Positions 18,055 through 26,264 of a DNA stretch of 64,000 nucleotides are shown here, piece by piece. Within the stretch, counting starts at the first letter, position 1. Every line of letters starts with the position of its first letter. The DNA is from Pyrinomonadaceae bacterium (GTDB lineage Bacteria; Acidobacteriota; Blastocatellia; Pyrinomonadales; Pyrinomonadaceae). The notes below the pieces were generated by a model. The model was not told where the DNA came from. It ran no database searches and worked only from the letters and a program-made list of their open reading frames with translations. Where the stretch lies: assembly GCA_025054715.1 (NCBI GenBank), contig JANWYH010000001.1, positions 432,001 through 496,000 on the forward strand, read 5' to 3'. A program made the translations under genes and the position numbers.

Positions 18055-21000
18055 TCACTCGTCGATGACAGGTTGATGTCTTCGTGCTTTTCTTTTTTCT
18101 GCTTTCCATCGCTTCAGCACTTCTTCTGGATTGAATTTTTTAGAGATTCCGTCTCTTAAATTTTCTACTTCATGCTGAACGCGTGCAGCGATGAGTCTGT
18201 ATGCTTCTGTTTTCGGTATATTTCTCGTCATTTCAAAGAGTTCTTCGTATTCTAGAAATCTTCCTATTTTAGCTCCTATGGTTGCGCCGAAGCTTTCTCG
18301 CTTTGGAATCACTGTTCCTTTCGGAAAAGCCTCGTAAGTGCCCCACAAATAAACCGGTAAGATTCCAACCTTGCAATTTAAGGCTAGATAGCCTATAACT
18401 GGTTTGAATTCTTTTATTTCACCTGTAAGAGAGCGAGTTCCTTCGGGAAATATCAATGCATTATAGCCTTCGTTGAGAATTCTTGTTACGTGACGTAATG
18501 ACTGCCGCAGGTTTCCCGATCTTTCGATGGGCACGAGAGTTGTAAAATTGTTCATGAATGCGCGTTTATATTTTGTGTCAAACCAATAATCCGCTGCTGC
18601 AACAGCTACGGTTTGTTTGGCAGTCTCTTTGCCTAGAGCCTTTTTCACAAGCCCTGTGTCAAGGTGCGATGCGTGATTTGGGGCGACAATGAAGTTCGTA
18701 TGGACTGGGATGTTGGCTCTACCTTCGATTACTGTATCTAAGATACCATCGTAGATTGCCATCTGAGCAAGATCAATTAGTGTGTTTCCAACTTGACGCA
18801 CTATCCAAGGCAAACGGATATCGTCACCTTCTTTTGGTTCTTCGGTTTTTTCATCGGCGATTATCTTTGTTTTTTCGACCCTTTGGACAATACTTAACAG
18901 CTCGGAAACAGTTTGAACTTCATTGAGTTTTTCTGGTAATGTAACTTTACCTCCAGCATCTTCGATGGCGGCTTGAAGCTCGACAAACATTAAACTATCA
19001 AAGCCTAAATCAACAAGTCTGGAACTGAATTTCACATCAGAAAGCGGACGATTCGCCACACTTGCAACAATTTTACGGAGCCACAAACCGGTTTCATCTC
19101 CATTTGTCTCGACTTTAAGATTTGCTAATTTCTTCGATTTGGCTTCGAGTTCTCGCAAGATTTTAACTACTTCGCTTCTTTTCACTTTTCGCGTTGCCGT
19201 GCGCGGTAGCTCGTAGGGTGTTATGTGCATAACTTTTACACGCTTAAAGAAGGGAAGCGAAGCAGAAACTTCTCTGAAGTGTTCTTCAACCTTTTGGTTT
19301 ATCTCGGCTCTCGTGAGTGCGATGTCATATTCGTAATTTGGAACCACTAGAGCGGCTACCTTCTCGCCGCTGTCTTCATCTGGCAAGCCTACAACGGAGA
19401 TTTCTTTTATGTATGGTGATTTGCCGTATAATTCTTCAATTTCGTCCGGGTAGATGTTTTTGCCATTTGAATCAATTATGACGTCTTTTAGTCTGCCTAG
19501 AATGTAGAGGTTTCCATCTTCGTCAATTCTTCCTAAATCACCAGTCCGAAGCCATCTGTCTTGTATAGCTTCCTGCGTAGCTTCTTCATTTTTGTAGTAG
19601 CCCAGCATTATGTTTTGTCCGCGTGCCAGAATCTCGCCGACGCCGTTTTCATCTGGTGCATCAATTTTTACTTCAACTCCTGGCAGCGGTTTTCCGACGC
19701 TTCCTTCAATTAGTTTGTTGCCGGGACGCGTTACGGTCAGCACAGGCGAAGCTTCTGTAAGTCCGTAGCCTTGTAATATGTTAAATCCAAGTCCGTGAAG
19801 CTCTCTTTGAACTTTTTCTGATAATGCTGAGCCGCCCGAGATTAGGTAACGTATTCGTCCACCCATTCCTTCATGTATCGGGAAAAAGAGAATGGGTCCT
19901 AAATTAAATGGCGTGTTGTCGCGAAGCCAAGCATTAAATTCGATAATGTTATCAGCAATATCAGCAAGCCAATCGCCGCGTTCTCTAAGCCGCGTCTTTA
20001 TTCGGCGATGCAGCATTTCCCAAAGGGCTGGAACTCCTATCATTCCAGTAATTTGACCACTTTCAAGAGCGCGTGCTAGCTCTTCTGCTGAAAGCTCGTC
20101 TAGGTAATGAATTTGTGTTCCGTTTGAAAATGGAGTTAGAAAACCTGCTGAAAATTCAAAGGTATGATGTAAAGGCAAGACCGAAAGAACGGCATCATTT
20201 ATTCCCATTTCTAGCACGCTCGATAACATTGAGACCATGTTGACGAAATTCTTATGCGAGAGCATTACGGCTTTAGGCTTTCCAGTTGTTCCAGAAGTGA
20301 AAATCAAGGAAGCTGGTGAATTCGCCAAAACTTTATTCGGCAAAAGCTCTAGCCTTCTAGCTTCTTCGGTTGCCGAAGGCATCTCAAAAACTTCTTCGAA
20401 TGTCCACACTGGTATCTTTATTTTTGCCTCTTTCAAAGCCTCTGCTAAATCAATGTTCTTATCGGCTACCTTTTGAGAAACGATAATCGCAGAAGCCTCA
20501 CTAAGACGAGCAAATTCAGCTATTTCTTTTGCAGAGCATGAAGGGTCAACCGGGACTGCTACTGCTCCACTTCTTATTATGCCAAAATATGAGATTCCCC
20601 ACTCGGGCATGTTGTGTGAGCAAAGCAGAACCTTATCGCCTGGCTTTATGCCTTCATTTGCTAAAAAGCCTGCAGCTCGCAAAGCAAGTTCTCTTACGTC
20701 TTCGTAGGTATATTGTTCGCGACGGCAGTTGCGTTCGATTCTCATGCAAGTGCGTGTGGAAAATCGCTTGGTTGCCGTTTCAAAAAGGTCTATCAGGTCT
20801 TTATAGGTGTAGGCTCTCTTTTCGGGCTTTTTCAGTTCTTCTTCTAATGTTGGTAATACCCATCGTCTAACGCCTGGGAAATGAATCTTCAGCCAGTAGT
20901 CGTACCAATCAATTTTTTCCGGATACCAAGGAAGTAAATGCTTTTCGTCTTCTTCGATTGACGCCATTAGAGCACGGACGTTATCAGCCCTAAACTCATA

Positions 21001-22473
21001 CTCGTTGTCAACCATGAAAGGCTTAAAAAGTGCGAAGGCGTCGATGGTTTCTTTTGTTGAACGCTCAAATTCTTCGACCGATTTTTTCAGGTCTGAAATT
21101 ATGTGGGAAAATCTCCCACCAGCCCATCGAGGCTTCGCTTCTTCAAGCAAGTTTTTTGCATGCTTTGCAATGCGGTTTAACATTGGAGCGGAAAATTTTT
21201 CATAAGTTTCTTGAGAAACCGGCAGGGCTTCCATTGCAGCAGATAGCTTGTTGAGTATCTTATTGCCTGTTTCTTTTTCTTTGTAGTATTCGCGTTTGTA
21301 GAGTCCAAGAAGTCCAACAATTCGCTTCATGTCTATCGGGTTTGAATCGCCTGAACAAGCTTGATAGACAAGAGGCGGGTTGTCATCAACTAAAGCTTTT
21401 GCAGCGGCAGCGATTATAACGCTTGCCACCATGTCAACAGGAATAATGTCAAGGACCAGTTTTTCATTTACAGGTATTACAGGTTGACCACGCAAGGCGA
21501 TGAAGATCAATGGTGCAGTTGTTGTAAATCCTTCATTCCAGCCGGCAAATGGGTATTCGACGGCTGATTCAACAATGCTTGGACGGACAAGAATTTTTAC
21601 TATGTCTTCTTGTTGTGCGATTATTTGTTCAGCTAAAGATTTTGAATATGTATATATGTTTGTCCAGCCCCAATAATCAGCTCTTTCTGCACCTAGTTCT
21701 GTTGTTCTTTCGCGAATCCACATTTTTCGTTCTCGAAAGATAGCCGATTTGAGTTCAGCTTCATCATCTGGGTCGCGTCCTTCTTCCTCAAAACGGCGTC
21801 TTGCAGCTTCTCGAAAACGCGCCATTTGCACTGCATCGTCGGCTTCTCGGCGAGCCTGCTCTGAAAGTCTTGCACAATCTTCTATTTCCTTGTTAACGTC
21901 AAATCGAGTTCCTCGAAGTTCATCTTTTCTAGGAAAATAACCGACGACAGGCTCGTTTTCCCAAATAGTCCCGCTTCTTTTACCAGCGACAAAGCAAGTA
22001 GAAACATGAACAAGGCAAGGTCGGCGCATCATTCTTGCAAGCGTTATTATGTTGTATGAACCGACGACATTTGTTCTCAAAGCGCTTTCTAGCGGTGGAT
22101 TGAAGGTTACATTGCCTGCTCCGTTAATGATTATGTCGCAATCGGACATTATTTTTTGTGCTTCTTCTTCCGAAAGACCTAAAAATTCGTTTCCGACATC
22201 ACCGTTTATTGGAATTACCTTTTCTCGGATAAAATCTTCAAAACTCGAGCCGAATTTAGCCCGTAGAGGATCGAATGGTGGGCTAGTTAAAATGCTAGTC
22301 CAGAAACGATTCTTCGATTCGGCGGCGTCACGTGCTCGAACGGTTGCATAAATCTTTCTAATGTTCGGAAAATTATGCAAGAGCATTGAAAGCGTGACTT
22401 TACCGACAAAGCCTGTTCCACCGATGAATAAAACCTTTTTTCCTTCGAAAATTTTAGTAGGTGAAAGCTTCAT
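18055..22473 (-). CDS. ElbD-like megaenzyme: acyl reductase - acyl-AMP ligase - ACP - PlsC acyltransferase
   Basis: 1472 residues, four domains in order. (1) About 10-400: NAD(P)H thioester reductase of the fatty acyl-CoA reductase type, GGTGFVG (18-24), Y274-x3-K278, with a charged helical insert of about 70 residues (190-265). (2) About 560-1110: acyl-activating AMP ligase, FTSGTTGKPKAVMLSH (725-740), GYGLTEASP (902-910), GRLKDVI (993-999). (3) About 1125-1200: acyl carrier domain, GFDSL with phosphopantetheine serine S1160. (4) About 1225-1440: PlsC-type acyltransferase, NHASHLD (1266-1272), FPEGTR (1342-1347). The set resembles ElbD of Myxococcus xanthus, implicated in ether-lipid synthesis, and would let one protein activate, carry, reduce and transfer a fatty acid. 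It overlaps the preceding small membrane-protein gene by four bases. Confidence 0.88.
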   Translation of the reverse strand: MKLSPTKIFEGKKVLFIGGTGFVGKVTLSMLLHNFPNIRKIYATVRARDAAESKNRFWTSILTSPPFDPLRAKFGSSFEDFIREKVIPINGDVGNEFLGLSEEEAQKIMSDCDIIINGAGNVTFNPPLESALRTNVVGSYNIITLARMMRRPCLVHVSTCFVAGKRSGTIWENEPVVGYFPRKDELRGTRFDVNKEIEDCARLSEQARREADDAVQMARFREAARRRFEEEGRDPDDEAELKSAIFRERKMWIRERTTELGAERADYWGWTNIYTYSKSLAEQIIAQQEDIVKILVRPSIVESAVEYPFAGWNEGFTTTAPLIFIALRGQPVIPVNEKLVLDIIPVDMVASVIIAAAAKALVDDNPPLVYQACSGDSNPIDMKRIVGLLGLYKREYYKEKETGNKILNKLSAAMEALPVSQETYEKFSAPMLNRIAKHAKNLLEEAKPRWAGGRFSHIISDLKKSVEEFERSTKETIDAFALFKPFMVDNEYEFRADNVRALMASIEEDEKHLLPWYPEKIDWYDYWLKIHFPGVRRWVLPTLEEELKKPEKRAYTYKDLIDLFETATKRFSTRTCMRIERNCRREQYTYEDVRELALRAAGFLANEGIKPGDKVLLCSHNMPEWGISYFGIIRSGAVAVPVDPSCSAKEIAEFARLSEASAIIVSQKVADKNIDLAEALKEAKIKIPVWTFEEVFEMPSATEEARRLELLPNKVLANSPASLIFTSGTTGKPKAVMLSHKNFVNMVSMLSSVLEMGINDAVLSVLPLHHTFEFSAGFLTPFSNGTQIHYLDELSAEELARALESGQITGMIGVPALWEMLHRRIKTRLRERGDWLADIADNIIEFNAWLRDNTPFNLGPILFFPIHEGMGGRIRYLISGGSALSEKVQRELHGLGFNILQGYGLTEASPVLTVTRPGNKLIEGSVGKPLPGVEVKIDAPDENGVGEILARGQNIMLGYYKNEEATQEAIQDRWLRTGDLGRIDEDGNLYILGRLKDVIIDSNGKNIYPDEIEELYGKSPYIKEISVVGLPDEDSGEKVAALVVPNYEYDIALTRAEINQKVEEHFREVSASLPFFKRVKVMHITPYELPRTATRKVKRSEVVKILRELEAKSKKLANLKVETNGDETGLWLRKIVASVANRPLSDVKFSSRLVDLGFDSLMFVELQAAIEDAGGKVTLPEKLNEVQTVSELLSIVQRVEKTKIIADEKTEEPKEGDDIRLPWIVRQVGNTLIDLAQMAIYDGILDTVIEGRANIPVHTNFIVAPNHASHLDTGLVKKALGKETAKQTVAVAAADYWFDTKYKRAFMNNFTTLVPIERSGNLRQSLRHVTRILNEGYNALIFPEGTRSLTGEIKEFKPVIGYLALNCKVGILPVYLWGTYEAFPKGTVIPKRESFGATIGAKIGRFLEYEELFEMTRNIPKTEAYRLIAARVQHEVENLRDGISKKFNPEEVLKRWKAEKRKARRHQPVIDE

Positions 22474-22892
22474 AGCTCGTCAACTCTTTTTAAGCTTTCT
22501 ATGACGTCTGAATACTTCTTTTTCCAGTTAGTAATAGATTCTTCAGAAAGCGTGCCGATAAGCTCGGAGATACGAGAAACCGATTCTGAAATTCTTTTTA
22601 CCCTTTGTACCTCTAAGCCTGCCGTGCTCAGTGAAATTGAAGTCAGCTGATTATTTATGACTTCCTGAAGCATGCCTCTTATTTCTTCTATTGCTTCTTG
22701 TCTTACTTTGCGTTGCCTTCTGCGAATGATCCAAAAGATTACTCCATGTAACAAGCCAACGATAATTGCTGTGATTCCCGCAACTTGCCACCATGAGACA
22801 GATTCTGGAAAGAATAGTTTTGGGATAGCAAAAATTACTATCAAACCGACTCCGCTTAAAATTAGTTCTATGTTGTTGAGAAAATGTTTCAT
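22470..22892 (-). CDS. Small two-TM membrane protein with coiled-coil tail
   Basis: 140 residues, unrecognised. Two hydrophobic helices near the N terminus (LILSGVGLIVIFAIPKLFF and WWQVAGITAIIVGLLHGVIF) are followed by a basic RRRQRK stretch, which places the rest in the cytoplasm, and a helical, probably coiled-coil tail (EEIRGMLQEVINNQL onward). The ATG at 22892 has GAGG seven bases upstream and is preferred over a TTG at 22904. Its stop overlaps the megaenzyme start (ATGA), implying coupled translation and perhaps a membrane dock for that enzyme; the latter is speculation. Confidence 0.7.
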   Translation of the reverse strand: MKHFLNNIELILSGVGLIVIFAIPKLFFPESVSWWQVAGITAIIVGLLHGVIFWIIRRRQRKVRQEAIEEIRGMLQEVINNQLTSISLSTAGLEVQRVKRISESVSRISELIGTLSEESITNWKKKYSDVIESLKRVDEL

Positions 22893-22900
22893 AAAGAACC

Positions 22901-24502
22901 TCAATCTGTAACGTTGCAGATGCCAATCATGGGTTGATGAAGCATTGTTATTTCGGCACTCCTTCCCATTATAGAACGGGCCATAGCTATGGCTTCGGTT
23001 AGGTTATCAGCTCTTTCCCAGCCTAAAATTTCTGGAACATGGGCATTTTCAGCACCTGCAACTATGACTTTTCCAACGTGCTGACGACCGTTTTCTCCCC
23101 AATACCACATAAAAAAAGGATGTGCTCCGTGATAGGCATTGCCGCGACGATACATCTCAATATATGCAGGGTTTTCAGCAAATTCACGCTCGTATTTTTC
23201 GCGAAGATAAAAAGCATCCCGGGACTCCGGCAAGAGACGATGAAAGAACTCGATATAAGAAGGATGAAACTTATGATCGAATTCATCAAAGCAAGGATGC
23301 GTAATAATCAAAACGCCGCCTTTTTTCAGCAAGGGCTTGTTGCGATACATGTTAAAGTGATAACCTAGCGCCATTACTTGAACGAGCAGAGGGTTTAGAG
23401 CTGAATAAACATTGTAAGGTGAAATGTCAGGAATTCCCGTTATTAGAATATCGCATTGACCTTTGACAGGTATTTCGTATTGTTGAAAATTCTTTTCCAA
23501 AATTTTCTCATGGACTGGTTCAGTGGCCCCAGCATAGCATGCTATCAATTCGTATTGAGCCGGGATCTGATGAAGCAGTTTTCGTCGAGCTATTCTTGGA
23601 AGGCGTGAAAAAGTGCGTTTTAGGACTTCCCATTTCATTCTATCGGCAAAGGTAAATTCATCTTCATTGCGAGTTAAAATGTCATAGCCTTCAGGAAACA
23701 TCTTATTGTTAAGGGCTGTTTCTATGTGGAAGACGTTTAGATTTTCGTCAACTAATTTTCCGAGGCGTTCGATTTTGTGATTAAGCTCCGAGTTTGCTGG
23801 ATCCATGTAAGAGTTTGAGTTTCTAATCGTTTGTGGTTCATGATGTGCTCTCAGAGATTCGTAATCGCAAAGCCCGACTGCAACGGACTTATGTCCGCCA
23901 TCCATCGGCACAAGGTTTATATTCAGGTAAATCAAAAGATCGCTTTCGGCGCATCGGCGGTTGATGCGAAGCGGTTCGCCGTGTCTTGTGTATCCTATCG
24001 TTACCAGGTTTTCTTCGTCTTCCGCATCGTGATTGTAGTAACGGTCAGGGTAGAAGGCTTTGAAAATTTTATCGCCAACCATGCGTCGCATTTCCCATTC
24101 GGTCATCTTGCGATGCAGTGAGTTAGCTATTACGAGGTGAATATCGTCAACACCATTCGCGGCGCAAATGTCTAAGACTACCTCAAGCATCGTTTGCCTT
24201 AAGTCAGGGGTTGCCATCGGTGGAAGTGGCAGACTTATGTCGTCCATTGCTATCGTGACTCGCATTCCTGGGCGAAGCTGAGCATAAAGTGGGTCTGCGT
24301 CTATCGGATGATTAACGGCGTATCTAATTGCCGCTTCTCGATTTGGCAAGCCTTTGATTGTCGGATTAGGATAAATTACTCGCGTTCCGATAGGAAGGTG
24401 CTCCAATATGAAATCTTCGCCGTAGGGTAAAATGCGAGGAGCACTATCGCGGTCTATGTAAACTATGGATTCATGACTTTTTCGTCTAAGTTGTAAAACC
24501 AT
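22901..24502 (-). CDS. LarA-like (lactate racemase N-terminal domain / DUF2088) protein
   Basis: 533 residues. The N-terminal half resembles the LarA nickel-pincer racemase fold: [19 protein letters not shown], then [18 protein letters not shown] (the histidine-bearing helix of the family) and [14 protein letters not shown]. The second half (about 270-533) includes [18 protein letters not shown] and [20 protein letters not shown]. Real LarA needs a nickel-pincer cofactor made by LarB/C/E; none of these is seen nearby, and the protein is longer than LarA (about 425). It may racemise or epimerise another hydroxy acid or polyol. The setting, eight bases before the small membrane gene and then the megaenzyme, suggests a part in lipid or head-group metabolism. 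Exact reaction unknown. Confidence 0.75.
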
Positions 24503-24547: not shown

Positions 24548-25213
24548 TCAATCTAACTCGAGAATAGCCCAGTTATGCTGAAGAGCAACCTGACGAAGTC
24601 TAAAGTCAGGATTTACAGCAACAGGATGACCTACGATCGAAAGCATAGGTAAATCTGATATTGAATCGGAGTAAGCAAAAGATTCTGAAAGCACGATACC
24701 CTCGCGTTCAGCATATTCTCTTATCCATCTTGCTTTTGTAGCAGAAGCCATCACCGGTGGTAAAACTCTTCCCGTAGCATATCCATTGACAAATTCGAGA
24801 CGATTAGCTGCATATTCGTCAATTTCAAGATATTTCATAAGCTTTTCAATGGTAAAATCCAAAGCGCCTGTTAGAACTATCTGTCTAAAACCAGCTTTTT
24901 TTGACTTTTGGATCAAGTCGCGTGCTCCCTCGTATATGGCTGGTTTTAAGACCTTCTCGAAAAGCTCGTCGGCGAAATATCGGAGCCTATCTGCTGATTC
25001 GCCTTTGTAGCTTCTGAAAAAAAACTCGTTGAAAACATTTCTAGAGTAGAGATCTGTAAGTCCAAAAAGCGGTAGCTTCAAAACGGTTTCTGAGGTCTTT
25101 TTAACCGTTTTCCATAATCCCTGCTGACGAAGAGAATAAAAGGCGAGCGTGTGGACAAGGTTTGACCGAATTAAAGTTCCTTCCAAATCGTAAAATGCCG
25201 CTTTCTTCTTCAT
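24548..25213 (-). CDS. HAD-IB family hydrolase (SerB-like phosphatase fold)
   Basis: 221 residues. HAD motif I is present as FYD9LE11GT, with the second acidic residue Glu rather than the usual Asp. Motif II is the Thr in QIVLTGALDFTIEK. Motif IV, YSDSISDLPML, is typical of phosphoserine phosphatase-like subfamily IB. A helical cap lies between residues 15 and 95. The gene leads a four-gene minus-strand run with the LarA-like protein, the membrane protein and the ElbD-like megaenzyme, so a lipid-phosphate or glycerol-phosphate substrate is plausible but unproven. The D-to-E change may alter transferase or phosphatase character. Confidence 0.82.
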   Translation of the reverse strand: MKKKAAFYDLEGTLIRSNLVHTLAFYSLRQQGLWKTVKKTSETVLKLPLFGLTDLYSRNVFNEFFFRSYKGESADRLRYFADELFEKVLKPAIYEGARDLIQKSKKAGFRQIVLTGALDFTIEKLMKYLEIDEYAANRLEFVNGYATGRVLPPVMASATKARWIREYAEREGIVLSESFAYSDSISDLPMLSIVGHPVAVNPDFRLRQVALQHNWAILELD

Positions 25214-25366: not shown

Positions 25367-26158
25367 TCATTTTTCGAAAATTAAGTGATAAGTTAGATGA
25401 AAGCCGAAAAACAGAACAACACCACCCAAAACGGAGAGGGAAACGATTGGACGACGTCCGCCGTGATGATTTATCTCTGGGATTAAATCACTTGCCGCGA
25501 CATAAAGAGTTATGCCACTGGCAAAAGGCAAAATATATACACTTGAAAGACTGCTATATTTTCCTAAGGCTAGAAATATCAATGTTCCCAGAAAAGTAGT
25601 AAATCCGATAAAAAATGTTACTTTCAATGCATGTTTGTAGCTTTTTCCTGATGCAAGAAACATCGAAGCCACGGTAAAACCTTCAGGAATTTTATGCAAG
25701 AATATCGCTAAAAAAACAATCACGCCAGTTTTGTAATCAAGCATATAAGCCGCAGCTATGGAAACTCCATCAAAGAAAGTGTGAACTGCAATTCCAGCAA
25801 CCGCCGTGTAAGCAGTCGTTACAGAAATCAAACCTTTTTCGGAAATTTCCTCACCTAAATGAAAATGCGGTGCAATAGTGTGCTCAAGAAGATGGGTTAG
25901 AAGATAACCGGATAAAAGCAAAATCATCGGAAGAAAAAACTCTCGATCGCCCTGCTCGTATCTTATTCTGATTATTTTCGGTAAAATCTCGGCAAATATG
26001 ACGGCTATCATAAATCCTGCCCCGAAGGCTAGAAGGTAACCGAGCAGCGATTTAAGCTTTTTGTAAAGCTCTGAAGGAAATAAGATTAAGCCACCAAGGA
26101 TATTACCGATTCCAGCTAAAAAACCTAAAGCCAGCAAGTCCATTAAGTTTGCTTTCAT
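25367..26158 (-). CDS. ZIP-family divalent metal transporter
   Basis: 263 residues with about eight hydrophobic helices. The two metal-site helices of ZIP transporters are visible: VHTFFDGVSIAAAY (TM4) and LHKIPEGFTVASMF (TM5, HxxPEG). A histidine-containing stretch (EHTIAPHFHLGEE) sits between helices, typical of metal-binding loops. It probably takes up zinc or another divalent cation, or exports metal as some bacterial ZIPs do. The ATG at 26158 was chosen; it lacks a good ribosome site, and a TTG at 26167 or an ATG at 26143 is possible. Divergent from the dcw cluster. No metalloregulator is adjacent. Confidence 0.85.
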   Translation of the reverse strand: MKANLMDLLALGFLAGIGNILGGLILFPSELYKKLKSLLGYLLAFGAGFMIAVIFAEILPKIIRIRYEQGDREFFLPMILLLSGYLLTHLLEHTIAPHFHLGEEISEKGLISVTTAYTAVAGIAVHTFFDGVSIAAAYMLDYKTGVIVFLAIFLHKIPEGFTVASMFLASGKSYKHALKVTFFIGFTTFLGTLIFLALGKYSSLSSVYILPFASGITLYVAASDLIPEINHHGGRRPIVSLSVLGGVVLFFGFHLTYHLIFEK

Positions 26159-26264
26159 AAGGCACAATAGCTAACTTTACAGCAGGCTCGTCTGACTTTC
26201 AAAAAAGTTATGAATGAATTGATGCTTAAAACTGTTTAAGTGACAAAAACAGCAAATAAAGTGC

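Follow-up and report, generated by a model that had tools for sequence, protein, structure and literature searches.

The manner in which bacteria synthesize ether-linked membrane lipids matters also where branched tetraether lipids serve as climate proxies, and the locus described here raises the question for an acidobacterium: would one long gene that joins a reductase, a ligase, a carrier and an acyltransferase in a single chain serve such a synthesis? The window analyzed is a 64,000-nucleotide stretch of a Pyrinomonadaceae genome (GCA_025054715.1, contig JANWYH010000001.1, positions 432,001 to 496,000), and the gene lies on its minus strand. We put at roughly three in four the probability that its 1472-residue product is an ElbD-type multidomain enzyme, encoded in an elb-like operon through which this acidobacterium of the Blastocatellia/Pyrinomonadaceae would make ether-linked membrane lipids. 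Domains, motifs, fold class, a conserved operon and co-occurrence form the observed basis of this reading.

The ElbD-like gene, its partners and their distribution

The gene and its domains are as follows.

18055..22473, minus strand: elbD-like gene, 1472 residues, reductase-ligase-ACP (acyl carrier protein)-acyltransferase; open reading frame (ORF) and domains, kept in 28 of 28 sampled family genomes
20839..22473, minus strand: residues 1-545, fatty acyl reductase (NAD_binding_4 and FAR_C/Sterile), G18-x-x-G-F-x-G24, Y274/K278; Pfam, AlphaFold pLDDT 89, 7eoz the best PDB fold
19186..20781, minus strand: residues 565-1096, AMP-forming acyl ligase; Pfam AMP-binding (E 8e-81) and C-domain, motifs
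18895..19083, minus strand: residues 1131-1193, acyl carrier domain, phosphopantetheine site S1160; PP-binding (E 3e-10), S1160 invariant in 55 sequences
18346..18729, minus strand: residues 1249-1376, PlsC-type acyltransferase, H1267/D1272, EGTRS; Pfam Acyltransferase (E 2e-20), residues invariant

The ORF is intact and complete, while the plus strand of 18055-22473 is full of stops; since the whole protein recurs, at 85% identity, in another genome of the genus, the ORF is not a product of chance. Pfam placed NAD_binding_4 at residues 18-353 (E 1e-52) and Sterile/FAR_C at 467-540, followed by AMP-binding (565-960) with its C-domain (1011-1096), PP-binding (1131-1193) and Acyltransferase (1249-1376). 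Within these lie GGTGFVG (18-24) and Y274-x3-K278 of the reductase; TSGTTGKPK (726-734), YGLTE (903-907) and TGD (977-979) of the ligase; DLGFDSL, with S1160, of the carrier; and NHASHLD, with H1267/D1272, and EGTRS (1344-1348) of the acyltransferase. Catalytic residues are almost invariant among 38 reductase-bearing and 55 ligase-bearing sequences. A preliminary description, made from the letters of the sequence, had given the span and length exactly (leaving the strand unstated) and had numbered Y274 and S1160 in agreement with the motif positions; its claim of four domains with catalytic signatures is borne out by Pfam and the motifs and extends to relatives. The architecture is that of ElbD, with FAR1-like reductase, ACS, ACP and AGPAT-like domains on one chain in that order.

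Upstream of the gene, on the same strand, are three others.

24548..25213, minus strand: HAD-IB phosphatase (TIGR01490), 221 residues, ElbB-like; upstream of ElbD in 32 of 34 loci
22901..24502, minus strand: LarA homologue LarAH_14_15_16, 533 residues, candidate ElbC, keeping H130, K205 and H221 (nickel-pincer nucleotide, NPN, site) and lacking the second catalytic His; NF052592 818 bits against a cut-off of 740, motifs, fold 9q3k, 33 of 34 loci
22470..22904, minus strand: 144-residue protein with weak DUF4381, overlapping each neighbor by 4 bp and recognizable in the same genus only

A 45-bp gap and two 4-bp overlaps are all that separate or join the four genes. Across relatives the set reads HAD - LarAH (the LarA homologue) - ElbD - NAD-dependent epimerase (ElbE): among loci with more than 6 kb of upstream sequence, LarAH precedes ElbD in 33 of 34 and HAD in 32 of 34, and ElbE follows it in 38 of the 42 loci having more than 6 kb downstream. 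Lipid kinase (DAGK/YegS) and epimerase recur as cluster partners. Insertions sometimes occur between genes of the set, and the LarAH-ElbD gap ranges from 6 to 5219 bp; the 144-residue gene was considered as a conserved operon component and rejected because of its restriction to one genus. Relatives thus link ElbD to HAD, LarAH and ElbE, as elbB, elbC and elbE would be linked, whereas in the window genome only HAD and LarAH are so placed. In the window's genus ElbE has relocated, and here its gene stands about 410 kb from the elbD cluster (C11:40308-41324; ORF L141:8308-9327), where it shares 8 bp with a gene for phosphatidylserine decarboxylase (L141:7710-9327). The resemblance to ElbD proposed in the preliminary description is upheld by domain content and order and by this neighborhood.

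A scan of genome contigs retrieved 63 loci, almost all of them carrying the label Acidobacteriota, Pyrinomonadaceae or Blastocatellia, and tblastn found no full-length ElbD homologue on plasmids. Distribution was assessed in 396 Acidobacteriota genomes, counting as P-type a full-length ElbD of at least 50% identity; it was present in all 28 genomes sampled from the window's family (f1), in both genomes of family f7 and in one genome of another class (G027). LarAH (at least 60% identity) and ElbE (at least 43%) occurred in the same 34 genomes, namely the 31 with P-type ElbD and three others (G132, G096 and G189), a coincidence that does not represent independent events because the genomes are related.

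In those three genomes the reductase stands alone, in ORFs of about 500-630 residues with Pfam NAD_binding_4 and Sterile, and the order is HAD - LarAH - fatty acyl reductase - [ElbE] - DAGK (loci L154, L155 and L156). A second, distant clade of full-length proteins (about 30-34% identity, 14 genomes examined) partly shares the same neighbors: one locus (L116) reads DAGK - ElbD - HAD - zinc alcohol dehydrogenase - LarAH, and parts of this set occur in three more (L110, L111 and L119). In the reductase tree the three unfused reductases fall on the side of the P clade, apart from the distant clade (support 100; midpoint root, direction unsure). In the tree of ligase-ACP-acyltransferase regions the two full-length clades come together, with 20 homologues that lack the reductase, each of about 900 residues, on the opposite side (support 100; unrooted). 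From these trees, therefore, the reductase fusion either is old and was lost in the lineages of the three genomes, or arose twice. We found no earlier report of the unfused variants in the literature searched.

Several features of the cluster and genome may be recorded here. In place of DxDGT the HAD phosphatase carries DLEGT in the displayed f1 and f7 relatives, so that Glu replaces the acid/base Asp; Asp is kept in the unfused-reductase and distant clades, and in G027 the motif reads DMDGT. A ZIP-type metal transporter (25367-26167), encoded like the HAD gene on the minus strand and lying 153 bp upstream of it, was not seen near the cluster in relatives; a tie to nickel supply would be speculation. 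Elsewhere in the genome a second NAD_binding_4 protein (L136:11740-12822, 360 residues, E 6e-45) is encoded beside a quinone-oxidoreductase-like gene, with a PlsC gene a few kb away.

A LarA homologue between the phosphatase and ElbD

The gene between HAD and ElbD is the more strongly conserved of the two cluster members, LarAH identity across most of the family being 85-93% against 70-77% for ElbD. Its product passes the NCBIfam model NF052592 and shows the marks of an NPN-dependent member of the LarA superfamily: a Lar_N domain, the NPN-anchoring lysine (K205) and the nickel-ligand histidine (H221), which, like the first catalytic histidine (H130), are near-invariant in 62 sequences. Pairwise alignments and known LarA motifs served to match residues; by these the protein has no counterpart of the second catalytic histidine (LarA H174) and carries Leu opposite LarA R75. 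A classical lactate or hydroxyacid racemase, which needs both H108 and H174 of LarA, was considered and rejected on the missing second histidine. Loss of H174 has already been noted in LarAH groups 14 and 15, and a Frankia LarAH14, tried for seven racemase activities, had none of them (PMC7583248). The cofactor-synthesis genes larC and larE are present in the window genome; three genomes of the family that are 97-98% complete (G142, G190 and G220) have LarAH and no LarC match.

The model of LarAH (pLDDT 87) has its best fold match among the single-histidine LarA-like enzymes (9q3k, TM 0.77/0.85), whose substrate is unidentified (PMC12393405). With these NPN enzymes (PDB 9q2u/9q3k and 9q3j) the window protein shares the fold, the first histidine, the NPN lysine and the nickel-ligand histidine; it differs in its 22% identity, its shorter Asn loop, the Leu at the position of the NPN/carboxylate arginine (R75 of LarA) and a gene context of lipid rather than sugar. 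Because subdivision-4 genomes are reported to hold the entire elb operon (PMC10087280), and LarAH is the conserved gene in the place of elbC, a LarA-type identity is plausible for ElbC. That this one-histidine protein performs a nickel-pincer hydride transfer in bacterial ether-lipid formation is a tentative idea, to which we give somewhat less than even credence; if true, membrane-lipid synthesis would gain its first organonickel enzyme, and the uncharacterized ElbC a function. We found no earlier report of the LarA identity of the gene between elbB and elbD; likewise no paper linking ether lipids and lactate racemase was found, which is weak evidence of novelty, as most subscription journals were outside the search.

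The pathway proposed for the enzyme

The most likely sequence of events, conjectural in each of its reactions, in the type of chain and in the ether as product, would begin with the ligase adenylating a fatty acid, probably iso-branched, and loading it onto the enzyme's own ACP at S1160. The N-terminal reductase, with NADPH, would reduce an ACP- or CoA-bound chain to aldehyde or alcohol, and the PlsC-type domain would acylate a glycerol-phosphate-type acceptor; the HAD phosphatase, the LarA homologue and the ElbE epimerase/dehydrogenase, the last encoded elsewhere in the genome, may then complete the alkyl glycerol ether.

When reductase residues 1-545 were modelled with AlphaFold (mean pLDDT 89), the top Foldseek match was rice DPW with NADP (7eoz, TM 0.74/0.83, E 1e-31), followed by reductase domains of polyketide synthases (PKS), nonribosomal peptide synthetases (NRPS) and carboxylic acid reductases (CAR) at query TM of about 0.4-0.5; in a phmmer search of the full chain against PDB, 7eoz ranked first among all matches. 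Rice DPW is a fatty acyl-ACP reductase that forms alcohol. For ElbD of M. xanthus, an aldehyde has been proposed as the product (PMC9131029). A chain with these four domains would be capable of making a fatty alcohol or another reduced fatty product (a wax, free alcohol or modified lipid) and no glycerol ether, as its plant-like reductase fold and the occurrence of ElbD homologues in Pontiella, where ether lipids are undetectable (PMC11868695), might suggest; we hold this to be unlikely, since the gene order equals that of elb, lipid-kinase and epimerase partners recur, and the overlap of the ElbE gene with that for phosphatidylserine decarboxylase points to phospholipids.

M. xanthus ElbD acts upstream of CarF toward plasmalogen (PMC9131029), but a place for the present gene in a plasmalogen (vinyl ether) pathway is highly improbable, since the window genome lacks the CarF/TMEM189-type desaturase (PF10520), which only 2 of the 58 genomes of the class possess. 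A role in natural-product synthesis, as an NRPS/PKS-like enzyme whose reductase is of the terminal type, is suggested by ligase and carrier domains common to NRPS and by the NRPS-like label that genome miners give such genes (PMC9426513). It has very little to commend it: the reductase stands at the N-terminus, resembles FAR, has a Sterile domain and is nearer in fold to 7eoz than to PKS/NRPS reductase domains, and the gene, unlike an accessory cluster, is in every sampled family genome. A CAR or NRPS-PKS terminal reductase, with its C-terminal R domain after the carrier, was rejected on the same N-terminal position and on the fold, CAR R domains reaching a query TM of about 0.5 against 0.74 for 7eoz. 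The polyketide-type reductase, which the preliminary description had named as an outcome that would refute it, is accordingly disfavored by a fold that matches the plant enzyme far better.

Other ether routes were sought in the window genome. It contains no Ger-type DUF2229 (PF09989) domain and no recognizable AGPS; the AGPS candidates, two FAD-oxidase_C proteins, were both nearer to glycolate oxidase/LctD and were rejected. With no CarF, Ger domain or AGPS recognized, ElbD is the only known ether route recognized there, and for want of AGPS no enzyme recognized there could carry out the ether step in the manner of the animal AGPS reaction. Within the class DUF2229 occurs in families f4 and f8 only and never with P-type ElbD; most of these ORFs are of about 400-490 residues and may not be Ger, for which reason the domain was rejected as a marker. 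Several genomes of the phylum have the domain alongside an ElbD of the distant clade, and we claim no mutual exclusion.

The preliminary description's proposal of an ether-lipid gene gains support from the cluster in elb order and from presence throughout the sampled family. One genome (G087) carries the full HAD-LarAH-ElbD-ElbE set (L127) and is consistent with Pyrinomonas methylaliphatogenes; we infer that the family includes Pyrinomonas, a known ether-lipid maker: in strain K22 of that species ether and membrane-spanning lipids exceed 40% (PMC4644332). Several points weigh on the other side. For the source organism the ether-lipid role is predicted from genes, and orthology with M. xanthus ElbD is argued from architecture and operon order. 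In vitro the M. xanthus protein was active as ligase and ACP, but neither acyltransferase activity nor a fatty alcohol was seen (PMC9131029), and the Pontiella homologues count here as well. In the window genome elbE lies outside the elbD cluster. Finally, P-type ElbD is absent from the other families of the class, yet ether-bound iso-diabolic acid is reported as a product of most subdivision-4 cultures (PMC13274423), for which reason ElbD may not be the sole ether-lipid route in this group.

Comparison with known elb systems

The elb operon of subdivision-4 Acidobacteria and ElbD homologues of sponge Acidobacteriota are already published, and the gene itself is predictable from that work; the single-histidine LarA homologue and the unfused variants raise its interest moderately beyond this. 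What is added is a defined and strongly conserved partner set (HAD, LarA homologue, reductase, ElbE and often a lipid kinase), of which, in three lineages, the reductase is the sole megaenzyme part retained. The result is a short gene list for functional study, including a candidate nickel-cofactor enzyme.

In M. xanthus the order elbB-C-D-E is HAD - x - ElbD - NAD epimerase, and elbD mutants lose most ether lipids (PMC9131029). With that operon (elbA-E; Lorenzen et al. 2014) the present system shares the four domains in the same order and, in relatives of the window genome, HAD upstream, one intervening gene and an NAD epimerase downstream. It differs in that no elbA-like gene was seen in the window cluster, the genome lacks CarF, elbE is about 410 kb away, and the intervening gene encodes a LarA homologue, M. 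xanthus ElbC being described only as unknown. Homologues of the elb operon were reported from subdivision-4 Acidobacteria in 2018 (Sinninghe Damste et al., as cited in PMC10087280, PMC8788747 and PMC11868695), where entire operons are mentioned (PMC10087280); to judge from these citations, they come from the phylum of the window genome and probably from its taxonomic group too, and the window genome differs from them by its split operon. The elbD-like clusters of sponge Acidobacteriota and Poribacteria share the four-domain architecture and are flanked by hydrolases, dehydratases and oxidoreductases (PMC9426513), and the distant full-length clade (30-34% identity, e.g. L116) may correspond to one of their clades.

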